Source: a virus
Length of the DNA stretch: 37,060 nucleotides
Strand: one strand, 5' to 3'
IMG/VR virus record: IMGVR_UViG_3300046004_000552
Span: 1-37,060 of that record
Part shown: piece after piece, positions 6,049 to 33,372 of the stretch
Layout: each line of letters begins with the position of its first letter
How positions within the stretch are numbered: position 1 is the stretch's first letter
Position numbers and translations under genes: made by a program
Notes under the pieces: model-generated
What the model saw: the letters and a program-made list of their open reading frames with translations, nothing else
What the model was told of the DNA's origin: nothing
Database searches by the model: none

Positions 6049-8222
6049 TGGGTTGGGCTGATGCACCTGTCGTAAACGGCGGGGAAAAGTGGAAATCTGC
6101 GCCTGTAAGCGAAGATATTGTTGCGTCATATGCTGATGGTGGGCGAGTAATTCGCAGCCAAGAAGGCAAGCTGTCGTTTGTTAGCCCGTCATATTCAACA
6201 AATGATCCTGCAATCATCGCAAAGATCATGGAGACGCAAAAACCGCAAGAAGCGGTAAAGGCAAAAACCCGCGAAGATATCATTGCACAAAATCCAATCG
6301 CGGCGCGCGCAACCAAGTTTGTTGAGGGCGTTCCGTTCCTTGGGTCTTACGTTGATGAGTTAATTGGAGCGGCTGCTGGGCCTGAGGCAGCGGCTGGCGT
6401 TCGGGCGCTATCAGGGGCAATGCAAGAGCAAAAGCCGTGGCAATCGACTGGCCTTGGGCTTCTTGGCGGCATCACTGGGACTGCGGCAACCGTGGCGGCA
6501 ACTCCTGCAAAAGTGCTGTCTGCAATCGCAGGCCCAACAGGTATGCGCACCCTTCCGGCCATTGGCCGTGGGCTGATTGCTGGCGCGGCTGGTGGCGCTG
6601 TAGAAGGCGGCATCTATGGCGCTGGCACCGGCACAGATGCGGCATCGCGGGCGGCTAACGCTGGCACAGGGGCAGCGGTTGGCGGGCTTCTTGGTGGCGC
6701 ACTTGGGGGCGCAATGCCGTTGATTGCCAAGGGCGCAGAGAACGTCGCAGGATACTTCCGCCGCAGCGATGTTGATCAGATCGCCAAAGAGTTCGGCATT
6801 TCCAAACAGGCGGCAACCGTTATTCGCAACACGTTTGACCAAGGCGGCGACTTCCAAGCCGCGCGGGATGCGGTCTTGCGGGCTGGCGATGAAGGTATGG
6901 TCGCAGATGCTGGATTTGCCGCACAGGCTCTGCTTGATGCGTCCGCATCTACTGGCGGTCAGGCTGGCACAATTGCCCGCAATGAGATTGAGGGGCGCAT
7001 GGTTCGCACCAATGCGGCGCTTGAAAGCAACCTTGATACGGCATTGGGGCCAGCCCCGCTTGGGCCTAAGACTGCCGTTGCAGATATTGCCAAGCGCACA
7101 GCGCCTGCCCGTGATCTGGCCTACACCACGGCATACAGCACACCGATTGACTACTCATCGCAGCAAGGGCGGCAGATTGAGGAAGTAATCGGGCGCATCG
7201 CGCCGGATGATCTAATCTCAGGCATCACCGAGGCCAACAAGGAAATGCTTGCGCGGGGTGAAGTAAATCAGCAGATCATGGCTGTGCTTGGGCCAGATGG
7301 TAAGGTTGAATTCTTGCGCGAAATGCCAAACGTGCGGCAGCTTGACGAAATCAAGAAGGCATTACAGCGCATTGCCTATTCGCGGGCGAACACGGATGAT
7401 TTTGGGCGACTCACCGGCACAGGGCAGCGGTATTCTGACCTTGCGCGGCAATTGAAAGACGCCACAGCAAGCGCAGTGCCGGACTACGCGTCTGCCGTAT
7501 CCATCGGCGGCGATAAGCTGGCAGAAGAACGCGCGTTTGGCTTGGGGCGTGATCTGCTTAATCCGAAAACTGAGATTGAGGATATCGGCCTTGAACTTGG
7601 GAAAAACCCTTCGCAAGCGCAACTGTCTGCGGCTAAGTCTGGCCTTCGCAGCTATATCGACAAGGTGATGGGCGATGTTCGCGCCGTTGCATCTGATCCG
7701 AACATTGACGCCCGCGAAGTGATGAAGGCGGTTGGTGATCTAAGCAGCGCAAACGCTCGCACAAAGATCAGGCTGTTGATGGGCAAAGAAGCCGATGCAC
7801 TGCTAAAGCAAATTGACCAAGCCGCACAAAGCGCGACTGTTCGCGCGGCAATGGCCACCAATTCCAAGACGGCTATTCGCGGCAACGTGAAGTCTGACGT
7901 TGCTGCGCTGACTGAGCCTGGCATCATCGGAAGCGCCATGCAGGGCGAACCTGTCAACACGTCAAAAGCCCTCATTCAGGCTATCACAGGGCAAACAAAA
8001 GAATATACTGTCGCGCAGCAGCAGAAAATCTTTGCAGACATTGCTAAGGCATTAACGCAAAAGAAAAGCAAGTCTGCTTTGGCGGCATTGGACTATATCC
8101 AGAAGGCTGTCGCTGGTCAGCCGATGACGGCGGCGCAGAATGAATTTGTCGCGCAGCAAATCGCGGCGACTGGTCTACTTGGCGGCATCCCCGCTTCACA
8201 AGAAATGTTTGGGGCTAGGTAA
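6048..8222 (+). CDS. Internal virion / DNA ejection protein 2
   Basis: 724 residues, start overlapping the previous stop (TAATG). Residues about 135-225 are an extended Gly/Ala segment with glycine-zipper spacing (RGLIAGAAGGAVEGGIYGAG, then GGLLGGALGGAMP), the kind of sequence that can insert into a membrane. A long helical region follows, with a repeated charged-Ala pattern to the C-terminus. Large internal proteins of this design are ejected by podoviruses and help form the trans-envelope conduit. The stop overlaps the portal start (TAATG), so ejection proteins and portal are translated as a linked unit. No peptidoglycan hydrolase motif is seen here; that activity sits in the gene at 4093. 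Confidence 0.65.
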   Translation: MGWADAPVVNGGEKWKSAPVSEDIVASYADGGRVIRSQEGKLSFVSPSYSTNDPAIIAKIMETQKPQEAVKAKTREDIIAQNPIAARATKFVEGVPFLGSYVDELIGAAAGPEAAAGVRALSGAMQEQKPWQSTGLGLLGGITGTAATVAATPAKVLSAIAGPTGMRTLPAIGRGLIAGAAGGAVEGGIYGAGTGTDAASRAANAGTGAAVGGLLGGALGGAMPLIAKGAENVAGYFRRSDVDQIAKEFGISKQAATVIRNTFDQGGDFQAARDAVLRAGDEGMVADAGFAAQALLDASASTGGQAGTIARNEIEGRMVRTNAALESNLDTALGPAPLGPKTAVADIAKRTAPARDLAYTTAYSTPIDYSSQQGRQIEEVIGRIAPDDLISGITEANKEMLARGEVNQQIMAVLGPDGKVEFLREMPNVRQLDEIKKALQRIAYSRANTDDFGRLTGTGQRYSDLARQLKDATASAVPDYASAVSIGGDKLAEERAFGLGRDLLNPKTEIEDIGLELGKNPSQAQLSAAKSGLRSYIDKVMGDVRAVASDPNIDAREVMKAVGDLSSANARTKIRLLMGKEADALLKQIDQAAQSATVRAAMATNSKTAIRGNVKSDVAALTEPGIIGSAMQGEPVNTSKALIQAITGQTKEYTVAQQQKIFADIAKALTQKKSKSALAALDYIQKAVAGQPMTAAQNEFVAQQIAATGLLGGIPASQEMFGAR

Positions 8223-17826: not shown

Positions 17827-17956
17827 TGGATGCGCGGGGTGGCGTCCTGTTCGTGCATCGGCTGAGACGGTGGATTACTTGGCCGCGCACGACCCGATCA
17901 CGCTCAAGGCGATGATCGCGCATCAGGAGTTTGGACAGGCGCATGGGTGCTGGTGA
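17753..17956 (+). CDS. Outer-membrane spanin lipoprotein (Rz1-like)
   Basis: 67 residues from ATG 17753, 74 nt inside the i-spanin gene in another frame. A signal sequence with lipobox (LILCAAPMLLASC, lipidated Cys 19) is followed by a short mature part with GWRPVRASAETVDYLAAHDP and EFGQAHGCW. This GWRP...GCW pattern is common in phage lysis proteins of alphaproteobacteria. A GAAGGA-type ribosome-binding site lies upstream of ATG. The last codon and stop lie within the 3' end of an antisense tRNA gene (17951-18027), so the two transcripts are complementary there. Confidence 0.75.
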   Translation: MKLTKTLILCAAPMLLASCATPNTDGCAGWRPVRASAETVDYLAAHDPITLKAMIAHQEFGQAHGCW

Positions 17957-18027
17957 GCGCGGAAGGATTCGAACCCTCAACCTATCGAGTAGAAATCGAC
18001 TGATCTATCCAGTTGATCTACGCGCTC
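17951..18027 (-). tRNA. tRNA-Arg (anticodon TCT)
   Basis: Read on the minus strand this folds as a full cloverleaf. The acceptor stem is GAGCGCG / CGCGCTC (7 of 7 pairs). D-stem GATC/GATC carries a GG-containing loop. Anticodon stem GTCGA / TCGAT has loop TTTCTAC (anticodon TCT, reads AGA). The variable loop is 5 nt and the T-stem GAGGG / CCTTC (one G-T pair) has loop TTCGAAT. Discriminator A and CCA are encoded. It is the last element of the leftward small-gene operon. AGA codons are used by the phage, for instance in the terminase small subunit and lysozyme genes, and AGA tRNAs are usually scarce in GC-rich alphaproteobacteria. Confidence 0.93.
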
Positions 18028-21967: not shown

Positions 21968-22092
21968 ATCATTTCTCCCAGCCGATGCGTTCGGCCATGC
22001 GCTCACATTGCTATATATTCTGCATAGCGTCAATGGCGAAAATTCACAAAACGCATATTGACGCCGCGCCGCCAAATGTGCATTGTGCAGAT
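21968..22092. promoter_or_regulatory. Divergent early promoter/operator region
   Basis: Separates the leftward small-gene operon from the rightward Cro-like gene. An 8-bp inverted repeat, GCGTCAAT (22027-22034) and ATTGACGC (22057-22064), has its arms 30 bp apart centre to centre. Each arm contains a TTGACG box pointing outward, so they can be back-to-back -35 elements. The -10 boxes at 17-base spacing are weak (CATTGT rightward at 22081-22086, CAATGT leftward at 22005-22010). If the rightward one is used, the transcript would start at or near the ATG at 22093, a leaderless message. Confidence 0.5.
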
Positions 22093-22305
22093 ATGGAACA
22101 CATCAAACACATCTGGCCCAGAATGTCCGATCTCGCATCTGATCTTGGTCTGCCATATCAGACCGTGGCGGCTTGGAAACGGCGCAATCGCATTCCAGCC
22201 GAAAACGATGGCGCGATTATCGACGCCGCCGCGCGCAGAAATGCAGTGCTGACGTATGAGCAGCTCGCCAAGGCAAGGCCTGGCCGCGTTACCAATCGGC
22301 GGTGA
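22093..22305 (+). CDS. Cro/repressor-like helix-turn-helix protein
   Basis: 70 residues from ATG 22093. A helix-turn-helix is visible at about 11-35: RMSDLASDLGLPYQTVAAWK followed by RRNRIPAEND, and the C-terminal TYEQLAKARPG fits small YdaS/carph-isopro-type repressors. There is no dimerisation or peptidase domain, so it is Cro-like rather than a full CI. Earlier in-frame starts (22033, 21985) would add non-matching residues and cover the operator. It probably binds the inverted repeat upstream of itself and sets the balance of the two early directions. Confidence 0.7.
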   Translation: MEHIKHIWPRMSDLASDLGLPYQTVAAWKRRNRIPAENDGAIIDAAARRNAVLTYEQLAKARPGRVTNRR

Positions 22306-26935: not shown

Positions 26936-27691
26936 TTACTTCGCTGCGAATTGATAGAATGGGTTGCCGCCGTCAAAGGTAAACGGCAACGGCTCCGAGA
27001 TGCCGAAACGGTTCTTGCTGACGTTTGACGCCACGGGGAAACAGATGATCTCTCGCTCTCCCGTTGACTTGGCCTGCACCTTGTCGCCCTTCGTCACTGT
27101 GAACGTCTTGAGGCGGATAAACCCGACCAAATCGACGTTATCGGTGTAGTGCGGCAATGCCTTCTTGTGCATCCGCACCGTGTAGCGGCTGAATTCATCC
27201 ATGTCAGGCGAAGGGACTTTCTCCACATCAGCGTGACCGATGAACACCACATTCATGCCTTTCTCATAGGCAAGCGCGCCGATCCATTCTCGGATCATGC
27301 GGTGCTTTTCAGAAGCGACAATGTATGCCTTTCCGAACCCACCAGCCGCCTCGACGATGGTTTTCGCCTTCGGGTCAGCCGCCACAACTTCGCGCTCGAT
27401 CATGTCGGCAAGCTGCGTGATGCTGTCCAGAACGACCGTCTTGTAATCATGCGGCTGCGTTGCCAGCGCCTCGATTGCATCAAGCACATCCTGCACCGAT
27501 GCCGCCAGCGGAAACAGCGCAACATCATCGTTGCCTTGCAGGCTGGTGGTGCCATCCTCGGTGCGGATGAATACTGGCTTTGGAAACATTGCCGCCAAGG
27601 TGGTCTTGCCCAGTCCTGCCTCTGAAAAGATAGTCAAAATCATTGGCCGCTCTCGGCTTGGTTTTGACAGCATCTTTAGGTTAATAGCCAT
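26936..27691 (-). CDS. Sak4-like ATPase (single-strand annealing/recombinase, AAA_24)
   Basis: 251 residues. Walker A is in TIFSEAGLGKTTLAAMFPKP (about 20-39) and Walker B in YKTVVLDSITQLADMIERE (Asp ~89). Later come GMNVVFIGHADVEKVPSPDM and a C-terminal KNRFGISEPLPFTFDGGNPF, all matching the phage AAA_24/Sak4 family, a shortened RecA-like core. Sak4 proteins promote single-strand annealing with help from a phage single-strand-binding protein. Adjacent DUF669 and a Cas4-like exonuclease make a complete recombination set. The start lies 11 nt inside the end of the homing endonuclease gene. Confidence 0.85.
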   Translation of the reverse strand: MAINLKMLSKPSRERPMILTIFSEAGLGKTTLAAMFPKPVFIRTEDGTTSLQGNDDVALFPLAASVQDVLDAIEALATQPHDYKTVVLDSITQLADMIEREVVAADPKAKTIVEAAGGFGKAYIVASEKHRMIREWIGALAYEKGMNVVFIGHADVEKVPSPDMDEFSRYTVRMHKKALPHYTDNVDLVGFIRLKTFTVTKGDKVQAKSTGEREIICFPVASNVSKNRFGISEPLPFTFDGGNPFYQFAAK

Positions 27692-28382
27692 TTGACTTCA
27701 TCTCCTCTTTTATGGCTTCAAGTTCCAGATTGTATGCCGCACTTGCGGCTTCAGCGGTTTCATGCAGGCCGAGATATCTTGATGCCCCGCCTACGGTTAT
27801 TTGAGCGCACCATTTTTTTGCCGATTTGTGCCAGTAAACGCCGGGATACCCACTTTTATTTGTGGATTTCGGCTTTCCCATCACTCCTACAGCAAGCAAT
27901 TTCTTGTGTGCATCCGTCTTGAGTTTACCTAGTAGCCCATTTCCATTTGGGCTAGAACGATGCGATACTGACATTTTCGCGCGCGTTTCTTCGCTAAGCT
28001 GCCTGCCAGATATTGCCTCGCTTAGCTTTCTCCTATGGTCGTCGCTTTTTTTTCTGCCTTTTTGAGCTGTTGATATGCGCGCCTTTATTTCATCTGAATG
28101 ACGATATCCGGCAGATGTGCCGCCAGCCCCACCTTTTGCGATGTTGCATAGGTTAAAAAACTGCGAAAGCTGACTTATAAGAGCCTTTTCAACTTCAAAG
28201 GCCTCATCTTGGTTGTCGTGATGCGAAACAATCTCAACAGACATTCCATGGCGCTTTGCAACTTCTGTCCACTTACTATTGCGTCCAGACCAAGACCAAG
28301 CTCTGCGACGTGTTCCTTTACCTACATAAAACGGAACTCCATCGTCCTTTGTCTTGTGAACGTATATGTAAAACTTAGGCAT
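27681..28382 (-). CDS. GIY-YIG homing endonuclease with NUMOD3 repeats and AP2 domain
   Basis: 233 residues in three parts. The GIY-YIG nuclease (about 1-85) has FYIYVHKTKDDGVPFYVGKG and the catalytic Arg/Glu region (EAFEVEKALISQLSQF). NUMOD3-type DNA-binding repeats (about 90-150) include GYRHSDEIKARISTAQKGRK and RQLSEETRAKMS. The AP2 domain (about 172-222) has SGYPGVYWHKSAKKWCAQIT and RYLGLHETAEAASAAYN. The gene looks more AT-rich than its neighbours and sits between two genes of the recombination operon, as free-standing homing genes do. Its stop overlaps the Sak4-like start by 11 nt, so the insertion did not break that gene. Confidence 0.9.
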   Translation of the reverse strand: MPKFYIYVHKTKDDGVPFYVGKGTRRRAWSWSGRNSKWTEVAKRHGMSVEIVSHHDNQDEAFEVEKALISQLSQFFNLCNIAKGGAGGTSAGYRHSDEIKARISTAQKGRKKSDDHRRKLSEAISGRQLSEETRAKMSVSHRSSPNGNGLLGKLKTDAHKKLLAVGVMGKPKSTNKSGYPGVYWHKSAKKWCAQITVGGASRYLGLHETAEAASAAYNLELEAIKEEMKSNGY

Positions 28383-28442: not shown

Positions 28443-28826
28443 TCAAGGTTGCTCCTCCACTTTCACGCCGATTTTCCCCGGCTTGGTTTCGAAAGCCGAC
28501 GCAATCCGTTTCCAGATTTGCGGCTCGTTGTCTTGCAGCCACTTCATGCCAGCCGCATCAGCTTCGATCTTGGTTTTGATCGGGACCAGCGCATCAGGGC
28601 ATTTGCCCTTCACCTTTTCCCACGCATCAAGGTCAAGTTTCCGCGTCACTGGCTGCGTGAGCGTCACCTTGTATCCGTCAATTTTGTGGGTTTTGCTGCC
28701 TTCTGTCGGCACATCAAGAGCGGCGGAAAGCTGTTCCTCTATCCTGATCCGTTCTGCGTTTGCCTTGTCTTCCGCTTGCTTGGCAATACGCCAATCACGG
28801 GCCAAAGCTGACAGGTTGTCAGTCAT
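28443..28826 (-). CDS. DUF7173-like phage protein
   Basis: 127 residues from ATG 28826, chosen for the GGAG six bases upstream. The first ~45 residues are helical (WRIAKQAEDKANAERIRIEE). Then come KIDGYKVTLTQPVTRKLDLD, MKWLQDNEPQIWKRIASAFE and a C-terminal ETKPGKIGVKVEEQP. This order is seen in small phage proteins next to Sak4/RecT-type recombination genes, annotated DUF7173. It lacks nuclease or ATPase motifs; a host-nuclease inhibitor or accessory role is a guess. It is the first gene of the second leftward operon. Confidence 0.65.
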   Translation of the reverse strand: MTDNLSALARDWRIAKQAEDKANAERIRIEEQLSAALDVPTEGSKTHKIDGYKVTLTQPVTRKLDLDAWEKVKGKCPDALVPIKTKIEADAAGMKWLQDNEPQIWKRIASAFETKPGKIGVKVEEQP

Positions 28827-28916
28827 AGCATTCTCCATTTTCAAACCACAACGTCTTGACACTAAGCGGCACCGCGTGCGACTGTCAAGCGACAAAATAC
28901 ATCGTAGGGGCGTCAT
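28827..28916. promoter_or_regulatory. Divergent promoter/operator region, recombination versus replication genes
   Basis: Between the leftward DUF7173 gene and the rightward HTH gene. A 7-bp inverted repeat, CTTGACA (28855-28861) and TGTCAAG (28883-28889), contains two consensus TTGACA boxes that face each other, so two promoters would overlap. The leftward one has TAGTGT at 18-base spacing; the rightward -10 is poor. Binding of a dimer to the two arms would affect both directions. Confidence 0.5.
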
Positions 28917-29096
28917 ATGCTAACAATTGAGGAACTAAAGGCCGCTCTAGCTGATCGGCGGCTTGACATTGTGTCAGAAGCTACGGGGGTGCATCGGTCC
29001 ACCATTGCTCGCATCAGGGACGGACAGCAGCAGAACCCGACATACTACATCATGCGGAAACTGTCTGACTATCTGACAGGGAAAACACTGGGATGA
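28917..29096 (+). CDS. Small helix-turn-helix regulator
   Basis: 59 residues from ATG 28917: IEELKAALADRRLDIVSEAT, then GVHRSTIARIRDGQQQNPTY and MRKLSDYLTG. The HTH of the Cro/XRE type is clear (about residues 15-40: VSEATGVHRSTIARI). The final 'YYIMRKLSDYL' helix is typical of single-domain XRE proteins. The ATGA overlap with the primase gene means it is co-translated with it, and it probably binds the facing TTGACA repeat just upstream. Confidence 0.75.
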   Translation: MLTIEELKAALADRRLDIVSEATGVHRSTIARIRDGQQQNPTYYIMRKLSDYLTGKTLG

Positions 29097-31405
29097 AAAC
29101 ATCAGCAGAGATTGCGCGGGCGTATGTTGAACGCATGGGGTGGAGCCTTGTCACAATTCCAGCCGGATCAAAAGCACCAACGTCCTTCGGCTGGCAACAG
29201 CCGGAAAAGGCCATAAGCACAGGCGACGATGCCGAGCGTTACTGGACTGTGAACCCGACGCACAACATGGGCCTGCTGCACGCAGCATCTGGCACTGTGG
29301 CGCTGGACATTGATAGTGTCGAAAACACGCGGATCATATTTTCCACGCTAGGGATTGACTATGATGCGATCATGTCAGGTGTGCCACGCATTGTCGGGCG
29401 TCCAAACCGTGGCAAGGCGTTGTTCAAGGTTCCGGCTGGCATGACGCTGGCAACGCACAAAATCAGTTGGCCGACGCAAGCAGATCCGCGCAAGACAGAA
29501 GTCGTTTTTGAGTTGCGCGCCGGGGCTGTGCAGGATGTTCTGCCGCCGTCGATACATCCAGATACTGGCAACCCATATACATGGGCAGGGGCTAGCGTGT
29601 GGGATGGTCTGCCTGACATTCCGGCACCGCTGCTGACGATCTGGACCGAGTGGGATAGGTTCCGCCCGCAACTGATGGATGCCTGCCCGTGGAAACCGCA
29701 ACGCGAGTTTCAACCGCCGCGCAAGATAAGGCCGCAATCTGAAAAAGGATCTGTGATCGAGGCATTCAATGCCGCGCATGATATGGATCAACTATTGCAG
29801 CGGTTTGGATACAAGCCAACCGCGCGGCAGAGATACCTAAGCCCCAACAGCACAAGCGGACTTGCAGGCGTGGTGCTGTTTGACGATGGTAAGGCCTATA
29901 GTCACCATGCCAGTGATCCGTTTGACGGCGCGCATACATTCGATGCGTTTGATCTGTGGTGCCAATATGAACACATGGGCGACGTGACAAAGGCGGTCAA
30001 AGACGCGGCCTTGTTGCTCAAGATCGATAACGAGCCGGATCACGCATACGACGCCGAGGCGATAAACCACGGCGCAAAGGTGGCTGCATCATGGCGTAAA
30101 CCGTCCGTATCTGAAACCGAAGTGCCTGGCGTTCCTGATCACCTGCTTTCAATTCCCGGCGTGTTGCAGGATGCGGTGAATTTTTACGCCACAACCGCAC
30201 CCAAGCCGCAGCCGCAGTTCGCCGTGCAGGCTGCGCTTGCGTTTGGGTCTGTCGTCATGGGTCGGCGGTGGGTGACAGATCAGCGCAATTTCTCTGGCCT
30301 GTATTTTGTCAATGTCGGCGTCTCGGCTGCCGGCAAGGAGCATTCAAAGACCGTGCTGGAAAAATTGCTTGAGGCGTCTGGGCTGGAAAGCCTTATCGGC
30401 CCGAGCGGATACACGAGCGCCAGCGGGGTGTTTTCTGCATTGGTGCAGCAGCCATGCCATTTGACCATCATCGACGAGCTTGGCCGCGTTTTGCAGACAG
30501 CCAGTGCGGCTGGAAACCATCACAAGGTAGATGCACAGACGATCCTGATGGAAGTATTCGGGCGGCAGGATAGCACCCTGCGCCCGCAGGGATATTCCAA
30601 GATGGGCATGACCAAAAAGCAGGCTGACGAGTTTGACAAGGTGGTTAGATCTCCGAGCCTGACGCTGATGTCAATGACAACGCCAAGCACTCTCTACGGC
30701 CAGCTATCCAGCGCATACGTCAAGGATGGATTTCTTGGGCGCTTTGTCATTGTGGAAAGCCCAATCGGGCGGCAAGAGGGCAGGCCGATCAAGGTGCTGC
30801 CGCCAAGCCCGCGACTGATCTCATGGGCGCAGGAATGCGCGGCTGCGCAGGACGGCAATGGCGGCTTGCCGGGTGATGGAAACCACGAGTTTCCGCCCGC
30901 GCCTGTCGTGGTTCCGTTTGCGCCTGAGTGTGACGCGATCCTGCGCGACTTTGACCGCGAGATGTTGCGGTCGATGGATGAGGTCGAGCGGTTCGGCATG
31001 GAGGCAATGTTTGGCCGCACGAAAGAGGTGGCGCAGCGGTTGGCTCTTATTGTGGCTCGCAGCGCCAATGAGAGCGCCGTTAGTGGGCCTTCGCTTCTTT
31101 GGGCAGTGGACTACGCCCGCCACTACGCAAAGGCCACTGTAGCGGCCCTACGGCGGTCAATGAGTGACGGACCATTTGAGGCTGCGTGCAAGGCTGTTCT
31201 TGCTGAGATCGGAAACGGCGGGTTGAAAGGTCGCACGATGGCGGAACTGTCCGATCTGGTTTCCGCCTTCCGCAACTTGGAGCCACGCAAGCGGGGCGAG
31301 GTGCTGGATACTCTGGCATCCGATCACGGGGTTATGAGCCGAAACATGAACGAGGGACAGAAGGGACGCCCCCGCATCGCATGGTATCTGCCGCCGCAGG
31401 ATTAA
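29093..31405 (+). CDS. Primase-polymerase / DUF3987 helicase-like replication protein
   Basis: 770 residues. The N-terminal ~185 are a bifunctional primase-polymerase domain: VTIPAGSKAPTSFGWQQPEK, catalytic VALDIDS (Asp 72 and 74) and VLPPSIHPDTGNPYTW (His ~155). A linker and a middle domain (SGLAGVVLFDDGKAYSHHAS, FDAFDLW) follow. From ~350 comes a DUF3987-type ATPase with P-loop NVGVSAAGKEHSKT (~407-420), then LTIIDELGRVLQTA (Walker B) and LMSMTTPSTLYGQL. It would prime and unwind the origin in one chain. Start ATGA overlaps the HTH gene. A candidate origin lies immediately downstream. Confidence 0.85.
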   Translation: MKTSAEIARAYVERMGWSLVTIPAGSKAPTSFGWQQPEKAISTGDDAERYWTVNPTHNMGLLHAASGTVALDIDSVENTRIIFSTLGIDYDAIMSGVPRIVGRPNRGKALFKVPAGMTLATHKISWPTQADPRKTEVVFELRAGAVQDVLPPSIHPDTGNPYTWAGASVWDGLPDIPAPLLTIWTEWDRFRPQLMDACPWKPQREFQPPRKIRPQSEKGSVIEAFNAAHDMDQLLQRFGYKPTARQRYLSPNSTSGLAGVVLFDDGKAYSHHASDPFDGAHTFDAFDLWCQYEHMGDVTKAVKDAALLLKIDNEPDHAYDAEAINHGAKVAASWRKPSVSETEVPGVPDHLLSIPGVLQDAVNFYATTAPKPQPQFAVQAALAFGSVVMGRRWVTDQRNFSGLYFVNVGVSAAGKEHSKTVLEKLLEASGLESLIGPSGYTSASGVFSALVQQPCHLTIIDELGRVLQTASAAGNHHKVDAQTILMEVFGRQDSTLRPQGYSKMGMTKKQADEFDKVVRSPSLTLMSMTTPSTLYGQLSSAYVKDGFLGRFVIVESPIGRQEGRPIKVLPPSPRLISWAQECAAAQDGNGGLPGDGNHEFPPAPVVVPFAPECDAILRDFDREMLRSMDEVERFGMEAMFGRTKEVAQRLALIVARSANESAVSGPSLLWAVDYARHYAKATVAALRRSMSDGPFEAACKAVLAEIGNGGLKGRTMAELSDLVSAFRNLEPRKRGEVLDTLASDHGVMSRNMNEGQKGRPRIAWYLPPQD

Positions 31406-31489
31406 TCCGGCATTTATCCCCATTTATCGGAAACTGAAGCCGGAAAAATGCAGGCCCGAAAAGTGCAGCAAAGACAGGGTGTTAGGTAT

Positions 31490-31528
31490 GTATATATATA
31501 GGGGGTGGGATTTATCCTATATATATAC
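31490..31528. repeat. 13-bp AT-rich perfect inverted repeat
   Basis: GTATATATATAGG (31490-31502) and CCTATATATATAC (31516-31528) are exact reverse complements separated by 13 nt. The alternating TA stretches would melt or extrude easily, as in DNA-unwinding elements. The loop contains an inverted copy of the GGATAAAT repeat. Confidence 0.85.
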
Positions 31529-31538
31529 TACTACCTCT

Positions 31539-31561
31539 CCCCACCCATCCCCCCCACCCCC
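31539..31561 (-). other. G-quadruplex motif on the minus strand
   Basis: The plus strand reads CCCC-A-CCC-AT-CCCCCCC-A-CCCCC, so the minus strand has four guanine runs of 5, 7, 3 and 4 with loops of 1, 2 and 1 nt. Short loops like these give very stable quadruplexes. It lies directly beside the AT hairpin. Confidence 0.7.
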
Positions 31562-31593
31562 TCGAGAGGCCACTACCATCTCTTAGTAACGCC

Positions 31594-31620
31594 GGATAAA
31601 TGGGATAAATGGGATAAATG
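31594..31620 (+). repeat. Three perfect tandem iterons GGATAAATG
   Basis: GGATAAATG occurs at 31594-31602, 31603-31611 and 31612-31620 without any gap. Further copies nearby: GGATAAATC at 31665-31673, inverted GGATAAATG at 31411-31419 and inverted GGATAAATC at 31509-31517, plus a degenerate inverted copy at 31421-31429. Tandem 9-mers with outlying copies in both orientations resemble iteron arrays bound by replication initiators. Confidence 0.85.
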
Positions 31621-31702
31621 CTTTTTTAGTTTGTTTTCAACAGCTTAAGCAAAATCATAAATCTGGATAAATCATGGAATAATGTTTTGACGAAAATCCC
31701 CC

Positions 31703-31731
31703 TTGCTAGTCATTTTGCATAGTGCTAGTGT
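31703..31731 (+). promoter_or_regulatory. Predicted rightward early promoter
   Basis: TTGCTA, a 17-base spacer and TAGTGT, giving a transcript start near 31738 and a leader of about 36 nt to the ATG at 31774. The same TTGCTA box is used in the predicted promoter at 19358-19386, and TAGTGT in the leftward one near 28860. Confidence 0.4.
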
Positions 31732-31773
31732 TTGTGTATGGAAACGAGCAAACGCTCACACGGGAGACCTGAC

Positions 31774-32154
31774 ATGGACCTGACCAAAATCGACAAACCC
31801 TTCGGGGAACTGGACCGAGACACCAAGATTGCGCTGTTTGCCGCGTGGGTGGATGGGGCGCAGATTGAATACGATTGGGGTGCCGTCCCAACGCTTTCAA
31901 CTGGCTTTCAGGTGAATTACACCTATCGCGTAGCCCCCACCAAGCCCATCATCGACTGGTCGCACGTCGCTCCGCAGTTCAAGTGGATGGCGACTGATGC
32001 CGATGGTGAGACTTGGCTTTACAATGATCAGCCTGAAATTTTTGGGAAAATATGGGTATACAACGGATCGCATTGTTTTGAGGTAGACGCCTTCGCATCA
32101 TTCCGCCCAGGAACCTGCGGCTGGAAAGACAGCCTTGTGCGGAGGCCGGAATGA
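31774..32154 (+). CDS. Early protein of unknown function
   Basis: 126 residues from ATG 31774, chosen because GGGAG lies seven bases upstream; earlier in-frame starts (31738, 31732) fall at the predicted transcript start. The chain opens MDLTKIDKPFGELDRDTKIA, continues LFAAWVDGAQIEYDWGAVPT and then IDWSHVAPQFKWMATDADGE. The WSHVAPxFKWMAxDxxG block recurs in early phage proteins of Rhodobacterales and relatives, with unknown function. Soluble, aromatic-rich. First gene of the operon running to 34091. Confidence 0.65.
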   Translation: MDLTKIDKPFGELDRDTKIALFAAWVDGAQIEYDWGAVPTLSTGFQVNYTYRVAPTKPIIDWSHVAPQFKWMATDADGETWLYNDQPEIFGKIWVYNGSHCFEVDAFASFRPGTCGWKDSLVRRPE

Positions 32155-32579
32155 ACGCCCAAACCAAATTCGACATTCCATCGGCAGCATTGATCGCCAA
32201 GCCCTTCGCAGTCGACTACGGCAGGCTGACAGACCAAGCCCGCGCACGGTTTGACAGCGAAACGCTGCAATCCATCATCGCAGAGCGCATGATAAAATCC
32301 GCCCGCAAAGAAGGCAATTTTGGCGGATCGCCGCAATCGATCATCGACCTGCAATATCCGAAAAACGATCAACCAGACCCCGCAAAACCCACGGTTGGAA
32401 TGCGCGTCATGGATTGCATGGGCGACGATTGGGAAAGCGCAAAATCAATCATGGAAAAAGTCGGCGGACGGCGGACTACCATGCGCGATGCGCTGCGGGT
32501 GCTGATCGATCAGGAAAAGCTGGAATACCGCGCAAGCCGTGGATCGATCGGCGCAATGTATCGCAAGGCCCAGCCATGA
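32151..32579 (+). CDS. Early protein, winged-helix-like, unknown function
   Basis: 142 residues, ATG overlapping the previous stop (ATGA). The C-terminal half (SAKSIMEKVGGRRTTMRDAL, then RVLIDQEKLEYRASRGSIG) looks like a winged helix with a helix-turn-helix followed by a basic wing. The N-terminal half is helical (FDSETLQSIIAERMIKSARK). It may be a DNA-binding early regulator. Coupled on both sides. Confidence 0.5.
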   Translation: MNAQTKFDIPSAALIAKPFAVDYGRLTDQARARFDSETLQSIIAERMIKSARKEGNFGGSPQSIIDLQYPKNDQPDPAKPTVGMRVMDCMGDDWESAKSIMEKVGGRRTTMRDALRVLIDQEKLEYRASRGSIGAMYRKAQP

Positions 32580-33088
32580 ACGCTCAAACCGACAAGCGCG
32601 AATTTCTGCGCGAACTGATCCTGAGCGGGCTTCACACGCGGGCCGCATCAGAAGCGGCTGGAACGTCATACATCGCCGCCCGCAAGGTTTACGAGGAACT
32701 GTCTAGGGCTGGGCAGGTGTCGTTTTACACGGGCCGACCGTCCAAACTGACCCAGGATCAGCAGGATCAAGTTTTCGACATGCTGGAGGCCGGAAAAACC
32801 CGCGCCCAGATCGCAAAACATTTTGAGGTCAGCGCAACGACAATCTGCACTCTCGCCAAACGCATGCGAGACGGCGGAAGGCCAATTCCAAAGCGCAAGA
32901 TCTTGGCACCCGTGTTTATGTTCTACCGCGTCGGGCTTGAACTCGGCAAAATGAGCAGCGCATTTGACGGGCTGACATCGGATCAAATCATGATGATCGT
33001 CAAAGAAATCCCCGCCGGATGCACCGTGGCAGACTGGCTGCGTGGCGTGGTCCGCGATGTGGTCGATGAAATGGAGGACGGCAAATGA
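32576..33088 (+). CDS. Helix-turn-helix early regulator
   Basis: 170 residues from ATG 32576 (ATGA overlap). There is an N-terminal helical segment (FLRELILSGLHTRAASEAAG, then TSYIAARKVYEELSRAGQV) and a second DNA-binding helix-turn-helix near 75-100: LEAGKTRAQIAKHFEVSATT followed by ICTLAKRMRD. The second has the resolvase/Sigma-70-type pattern 'TRAQIAKHFEVSATTI'. It probably has two DNA-binding units. The C-terminal part (DQIMMIVKEIPAGCTVADWL) is helical. Transcription or replication control is inferred. Confidence 0.6.
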   Translation: MNAQTDKREFLRELILSGLHTRAASEAAGTSYIAARKVYEELSRAGQVSFYTGRPSKLTQDQQDQVFDMLEAGKTRAQIAKHFEVSATTICTLAKRMRDGGRPIPKRKILAPVFMFYRVGLELGKMSSAFDGLTSDQIMMIVKEIPAGCTVADWLRGVVRDVVDEMEDGK

Positions 33089-33372
33089 CCGAGCCAAACA
33101 GCAAGCGCGATATCTACATGCAGCACAGCAACGCTGGCCTGACATGCAAGCAAGCCGCCGCCGCGATGGGCATTCAAGAGGCTACCGTCAGAACCTACGC
33201 GCGGATCAACAAGATCCCATTCGCTGGGCTGGTGTTCGTCAACCCTGTCATGAGGCCAGCCAAACAGCCGCGCCAAGGGGTCGTAACGTGGGAACGGCGG
33301 GAACCATTCGGCCACGTCAACCGTGTGTCTCTGGTGGCTGTACCCGGCGTTCAGATCGGGGGTGTGTTGTGA
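33085..33372 (+). CDS. Small helix-turn-helix protein
   Basis: 95 residues, ATG overlapping the previous stop. HTH at about 17-45: NAGLTCKQAAAAMGIQEATV then RTYARINKIPFAG, the pattern 'KQAAAAMGI..ATVRTYARINKI'. The C-terminal half is beta-rich and basic (RQGVVTWERREPFGHVN). A DNA-binding protein with a small wing-like C-terminus is likely. Target unknown. Confidence 0.6.
   Translation: MTEPNSKRDIYMQHSNAGLTCKQAAAAMGIQEATVRTYARINKIPFAGLVFVNPVMRPAKQPRQGVVTWERREPFGHVNRVSLVAVPGVQIGGVL

Follow-up and report, generated by a model that had tools for sequence, protein, structure and literature searches.

The window analysed here, a 37,060-bp virus record with a 112-bp terminal repeat, encodes an SU10-like portal, a capsid and an adaptor protein among its structural genes, together with a replication and recombination module that comprises a RadD-like helicase, a VRR nuclease, a Cas4-like exonuclease, a homologue of DUF669-annotated genes, a Sak4-like ATPase, DUF7173, a 59-aa helix-turn-helix (HTH) protein and a primase-polymerase (prim-pol). 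Phages related to it infect Roseobacter, and one relative sits in a Rhodobacteraceae MAG. The Sak4-like and DUF7173 genes are separated by a NUMOD3/AP2-type ORF resembling homing endonucleases (27681-28382, minus strand), which is missing from two close relatives, G001 and G002, and is thus probably a recent insertion. A tRNA-Arg (tct) gene lies at 17951-18027 (minus strand), where the plus- and minus-strand gene blocks meet.

The 59-aa HTH gene (28917-29096, plus strand) is of the Cro/C1 type (HTH_3, E 2.5e-4, below the curated cut-off) and overlaps the start of the prim-pol gene (29093-31405, plus strand). It is preceded by a palindrome, CTGACAGGTTGTCAG (28808-28822), a possible operator of the HTH protein. 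The prim-pol matched PF09250 Prim-Pol (E 6.4e-20) and, in PHROG, DNA primases (best E 7.3e-76); PF09250 was its sole match in Pfam, where neither a helicase nor a Toprim/DnaG-like primase domain was matched. Downstream of the primase-polymerase part lies a helicase-like ATPase region, whose P-loop reads GKEH rather than GK[S/T], with G414-K415-E416-H417 invariant in 30 aligned prim-pols. Given this non-canonical P-loop and a structure model that is poor at full length and assigns low confidence to the helicase region, the unwinding activity of the protein is uncertain. The C-terminal part (residues 600-770) was modelled with good confidence by AF2, with a mean pLDDT of 86 and a helix-helix-helix-strand-strand order, and residues 694-770 (31172-31402, plus strand) are predicted to form a winged helix. 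Foldseek returned weak matches for this C-terminal domain, including Orc1-DNA and winged-helix regulators, and a search of solved structures by sequence gave no match.

The prim-pol gene stops at 31405 and its downstream neighbour begins at about 31775. The 369-bp gap between them (31406-31774) is non-coding and contains GGATAAATG eight times, in both orientations: four copies are exact and the other four have a single mismatch. Two minus-strand copies stand at the left, an exact one at 31411-31419 and CGATAAATG at 31421-31429, followed by the iteron-like GGAAAAATG (31442-31450, plus strand) and by GGATAAATC at 31509-31517 (minus strand). At the right, three perfect GGATAAATG iterons run head-to-tail with 9-bp spacing (31594-31620, plus strand), and beyond them lie a partial copy, ATAAATC (31657-31663, plus strand), and one more plus-strand iteron, GGATAAATC (31665-31673). 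Across 2000 dinucleotide shuffles of the gap, the maximum was one exact site and three sites with up to one mismatch to GGATAAATG, and when every 350-bp window of the genome was scanned de novo, this cluster ranked first. The preliminary description had called the repeats far beyond chance in both orientations and unrelated to coding, and both statements are borne out here, all eight 9-mers being confined to 263 bp of the gap; its placement of the array at 31594-31673 captured repeats that are indeed there, but the array begins further left, at 31411.

The gap contains additional elements. A TA-rich inverted repeat with 13-bp perfect arms, GTATATATATAGG and CCTATATATATAC, spans 31490-31528, holds the GGATAAATC iteron at 31509-31517 in its loop and is a candidate unwinding element; elements similar to it occur in the relatives L113 and L005, and a TA-rich stretch separates opposed iteron blocks both in the window and in relatives. 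G-run and C-run inverted arms, AGGGGGTGGG (31500-31509) and CCCACCCCCT (31553-31562), overlap this region, and some form of the C-rich stretch is likewise found in relatives. DNA hairpin energies compared with shuffles showed no consistent advantage (z-scores from +1.6 to -3.9, and -0.04 for the window), and so with mixed z-scores we dropped the hairpin as a general feature of these gaps. The sole Rfam match, mir-4703 on the TA palindrome, was set aside as chance (27 bits against a gathering score of 88 bits). GC skew tracked gene direction, with a local minimum at 28,903 that corresponds to a strand switch 2.5 kb from the array, and lends the origin reading no support.

Comparison with G001 and G002, whose prim-pols are 98-99% identical to that of the window, showed that the array is almost unchanged in both, so that the repeats are not lost from close relatives keeping the same primase, the outcome which the preliminary description had named as counting against it. 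Among the three phages, the iterons were identical at 77 of 78 bases and the TA arms at 25 of 26, compared to 164 of 231 bases in the rest of the gap (Fisher P 7e-9 for iterons versus other bases) and only 59% of prim-pol third codon positions. Judged from these alignments, the array is under purifying selection. The prim-pol and recombination genes of G002 (IMGVR_UViG_3300021247_000261) share 80-99% protein identity with the window, and this genome yielded no homologue of the portal, capsid and terminase genes that the window carries; the two phages thus have a replication module in common with unrelated structural genes, a case of whole-module exchange between phages.

Outside these three genomes the exact 9-mer array was not present. 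Instead, in relatives at 56-70% prim-pol identity, an array arranged in the same way lies downstream of the gene but uses a different sequence, which we term a dialect: GCCATAAAT, GCAATAAAT, GCATAAAT, CGGTAAAT, TGCCAATAA or ATGCCAAAA. By de novo scan we assigned TTTATGGCA to G006 and G007, TGCAATAAA to the phages CRP-901 and CRP-902 and to G005, and CCGCATAAA to L113; CGGTAAAT belongs to L005, TGCCAATAA to L034 and L045, and ATGCCAAAA to L029. Scoring a cluster as at least three exact NNNTAAAT words, we detected clusters downstream of prim-pol at 38 of the 48 loci whose downstream flank is 1.5 kb or longer (four of the 38 scored on the low-complexity word TTTTAAAT), compared to none of 59 upstream and none of 78 within the gene. 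The upstream flank served as background control, since reversed sequence is not clean: tandem arrays read backwards also yield repeats. Five of the ten cluster-negative loci (L034, L045, L029, L044 and L069) have variant or imperfect arrays. L030, L035, L041 and L091 stop short of the array position of their nearest relatives, and in L006 the gene order differs and the contig begins within prim-pol. This comparison strongly favours the earlier proposal, in which an iteron-type origin belongs with the prim-pol gene, diverged relatives having equivalent arrays in the same place.

The arrays share a recurring geometry, identical in both clades, in which a block of three copies 9 bp apart is accompanied by one copy about 53 bp away, then by a C-run or G-run, then by a TA/AAT-rich stretch that often holds one iteron, and finally by opposed iterons. 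Compared to its relatives, the window carries the whole unit inverted relative to prim-pol, and the distance from prim-pol to the array reaches 4 kb in some relatives. In the Pseudomonas phages LPPA56 (L136) and KT1 (L137) only the N-terminal half of prim-pol is recognisably related; arrays lie directly 3' of the gene in both (7729-8007 and 7679-7966, respectively), with iterons of unrelated sequence (GTTGGGTAT, TGGTTAGGG) at 9-11-bp spacing. The Loktanella phage pCB2051-A (L133) has long inverted repeats with arms of about 29 bp and no iterons after its prim-pol (6926-7438), resembling the pRN1/BIP-1 stem-loop. An exact 20-mer found in the viral contigs L084 and L086-L088 was rejected, as none of them is among the prim-pol relatives and, from the ORFs listed for L086-L088, the matches there look like chance.

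What reads the iterons, and for what purpose, can be narrowed by asking which neighbours change with them. The preliminary description had left the binder as either one of the HTH proteins or the prim-pol. In the window a new gene block begins shortly after the array, several HTH genes lie in the neighbourhood, and phage operator regions also contain short repeats in both orientations, so that the array might be an operator cluster through which a regulator controls transcription of the flanking genes, with replication starting elsewhere. Nevertheless, the array stays near prim-pol while neighbouring genes vary among phages; the HTH gene at 32576-33088 and the CI-like gene at 21985-22305 are not in G001 or G002, which retain the array, and the HTH gene at 33085-33372 is missing from all phages with other dialects. 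Moreover, a look for sigma-70-like promoters at 31300-31900 gave none, and the TA-rich and G/C-run elements that separate the opposed blocks suit an origin better, which together make an operator cluster unlikely. We regard a packaging, partition or recombination site as very improbable: elsewhere, repeat arrays do mark pac sites and centromeres, but G002 retains the array without the window's structural genes, which places it with the replication module and makes packaging unlikely, and among those window proteins that were scanned none matched a partition family.

A subtler alternative keeps the array as an origin and assigns its binding to the Cro-type HTH protein encoded at 28917-29096, which would then recruit the prim-pol. 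Its gene overlaps the prim-pol start, and a positional homologue lies upstream of prim-pol in nearly all relatives; yet its core is the same in CRP-901, which has iterons of the CAA type, and in L058, which has the CCA type, it is nearly identical in L034 (TGCCAATAA) and L037 (CCA), and the palindrome-like CTGACAGGTTGTCAG preceding its own gene is unlike the iterons. An HTH reader is therefore quite improbable, and the 59-aa protein is probably a regulator of the prim-pol operon. With the nearby HTH proteins missing from relatives and the upstream one constant across dialects, the prim-pol is left as the probable reader, and so the earlier choice now leans towards the prim-pol C-terminal winged helix over the HTH proteins; the same layout beside prim-pol despite a changing repeat sequence points the same way. 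Within the prim-pol alignment, 11 columns distinguish phages with CAA iterons from those with CCA iterons, and seven of them fall within the winged helix (hypergeometric P 1.6e-4). These columns are suggestive only, because the CAA-to-CCA switch is a single event on the tree and because C-terminal divergence, tested more generally against iteron change, showed no consistent excess; with that test unclear, the proposed coevolution of reader and iteron rests on one clade switch and the L034/L037 pair.

Taken together, we infer that 31411-31673 is likely to be the replication origin of a tailed phage, bound by the C-terminal winged helix of the prim-pol. According to this model, the prim-pol, whose gene lies immediately upstream, would bind the GGATAAATG iterons through its winged helix, and binding on the two opposed iteron blocks would assemble its ATPase region across the intervening TA-rich stretch. 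This stretch would then melt, allowing the N-terminal primase-polymerase to prime synthesis, while the role of the 59-aa HTH protein would probably be limited to regulation of the operon. More tentatively, and with doubt prevailing, the phages concerned may form a widespread group of marine and alphaproteobacterial phages with a common origin, whose dialect (GGATAAAT, CCATAAAT, CAATAAAT, CCAATAA, CCAAAA, GCATAAAT and CGGTAAAT) diversifies along with the prim-pol winged helix and so creates replication-compatibility groups. If true, co-infecting phages or satellites would fire their own origins only.

Most phages that are represented solely by metagenome sequences have, to our knowledge, no identified origin. 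The signature described here, in which a prim-pol gene is followed by a 9-bp tandem iteron block, a C/G-run, a TA stretch and finally opposed iterons, allows a candidate origin to be placed in dozens of phages and also names a candidate initiator and a candidate reading domain. Because the dialects form a natural series, each with its matching protein, the specificity code is open to direct testing. The signature further connects prim-pol proteins, whose proposed origin had been an iteron-free stem-loop (PMC4234260), with initiation in the manner of P4 and SaPI. A search of the open literature, with subscription journals outside its coverage, found no published description of such an origin type; the arrays of prim-pol phages, with their diversified iteron dialects, would, if they function as origins, constitute a new form within the known iteron-origin kind.

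Among known systems, SaPI Rep and SCCmec Cch2 were found experimentally to use their C-terminal domains to bind iterons that immediately follow the genes encoding them, SaPI5 Rep combining primase and helicase domains in one protein (PMC7581432). The window shares with them a non-coding, above-chance iteron array directly after the gene of the putative initiator and a TA-rich stretch beside the iterons, and its predicted winged helix is a candidate for a C-terminal iteron reader of the same sort. It differs in the Prim-Pol (PF09250) N-terminus and unusual P-loop of its protein, in being carried by tailed phages and in its 9-mer family, which has an ATAAAT core and not the AAGTG reported for the Cch2 iteron (PMC7581432). 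The alpha protein of P4 similarly unites primase, helicase and C-terminal winged helix and binds short origin repeats (PMC4234260), although its primase is of the Toprim type and that of the window of the archaeo-eukaryotic prim-pol type. By analogy with these three proteins, the window's prim-pol probably binds its iterons, opens the TA-rich stretch and primes. D5/DUF3987-like helicases differ in having the canonical Walker A motif GK[S/T], where the prim-pol has GKEH. In gene order, the window resembles pRN1 and phage BIP-1/BPP-1, where a small DNA-binding protein gene is followed by a prim-pol with a C-terminal winged helix. In pRN1 (orf56/orf904) a repressor and prim-pol operon has its origin 3' of the gene; that origin is a large, iteron-free stem-loop, and ORF904 was found to show no specific binding (PMC4234260). 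In the window, by contrast, it is the iterons that are conserved, whereas hairpins fold weakly. The Roseobacter phages CRP-901 and CRP-902 (OQ401623 and OQ401624, with no origin annotated in the stretches examined) share a 57% identical prim-pol, the same upstream HTH gene, the same gene set and an iteron array downstream of prim-pol, and differ from the window in their dialect, TGCAATAAA, and in the opposite orientation of the unit relative to prim-pol.
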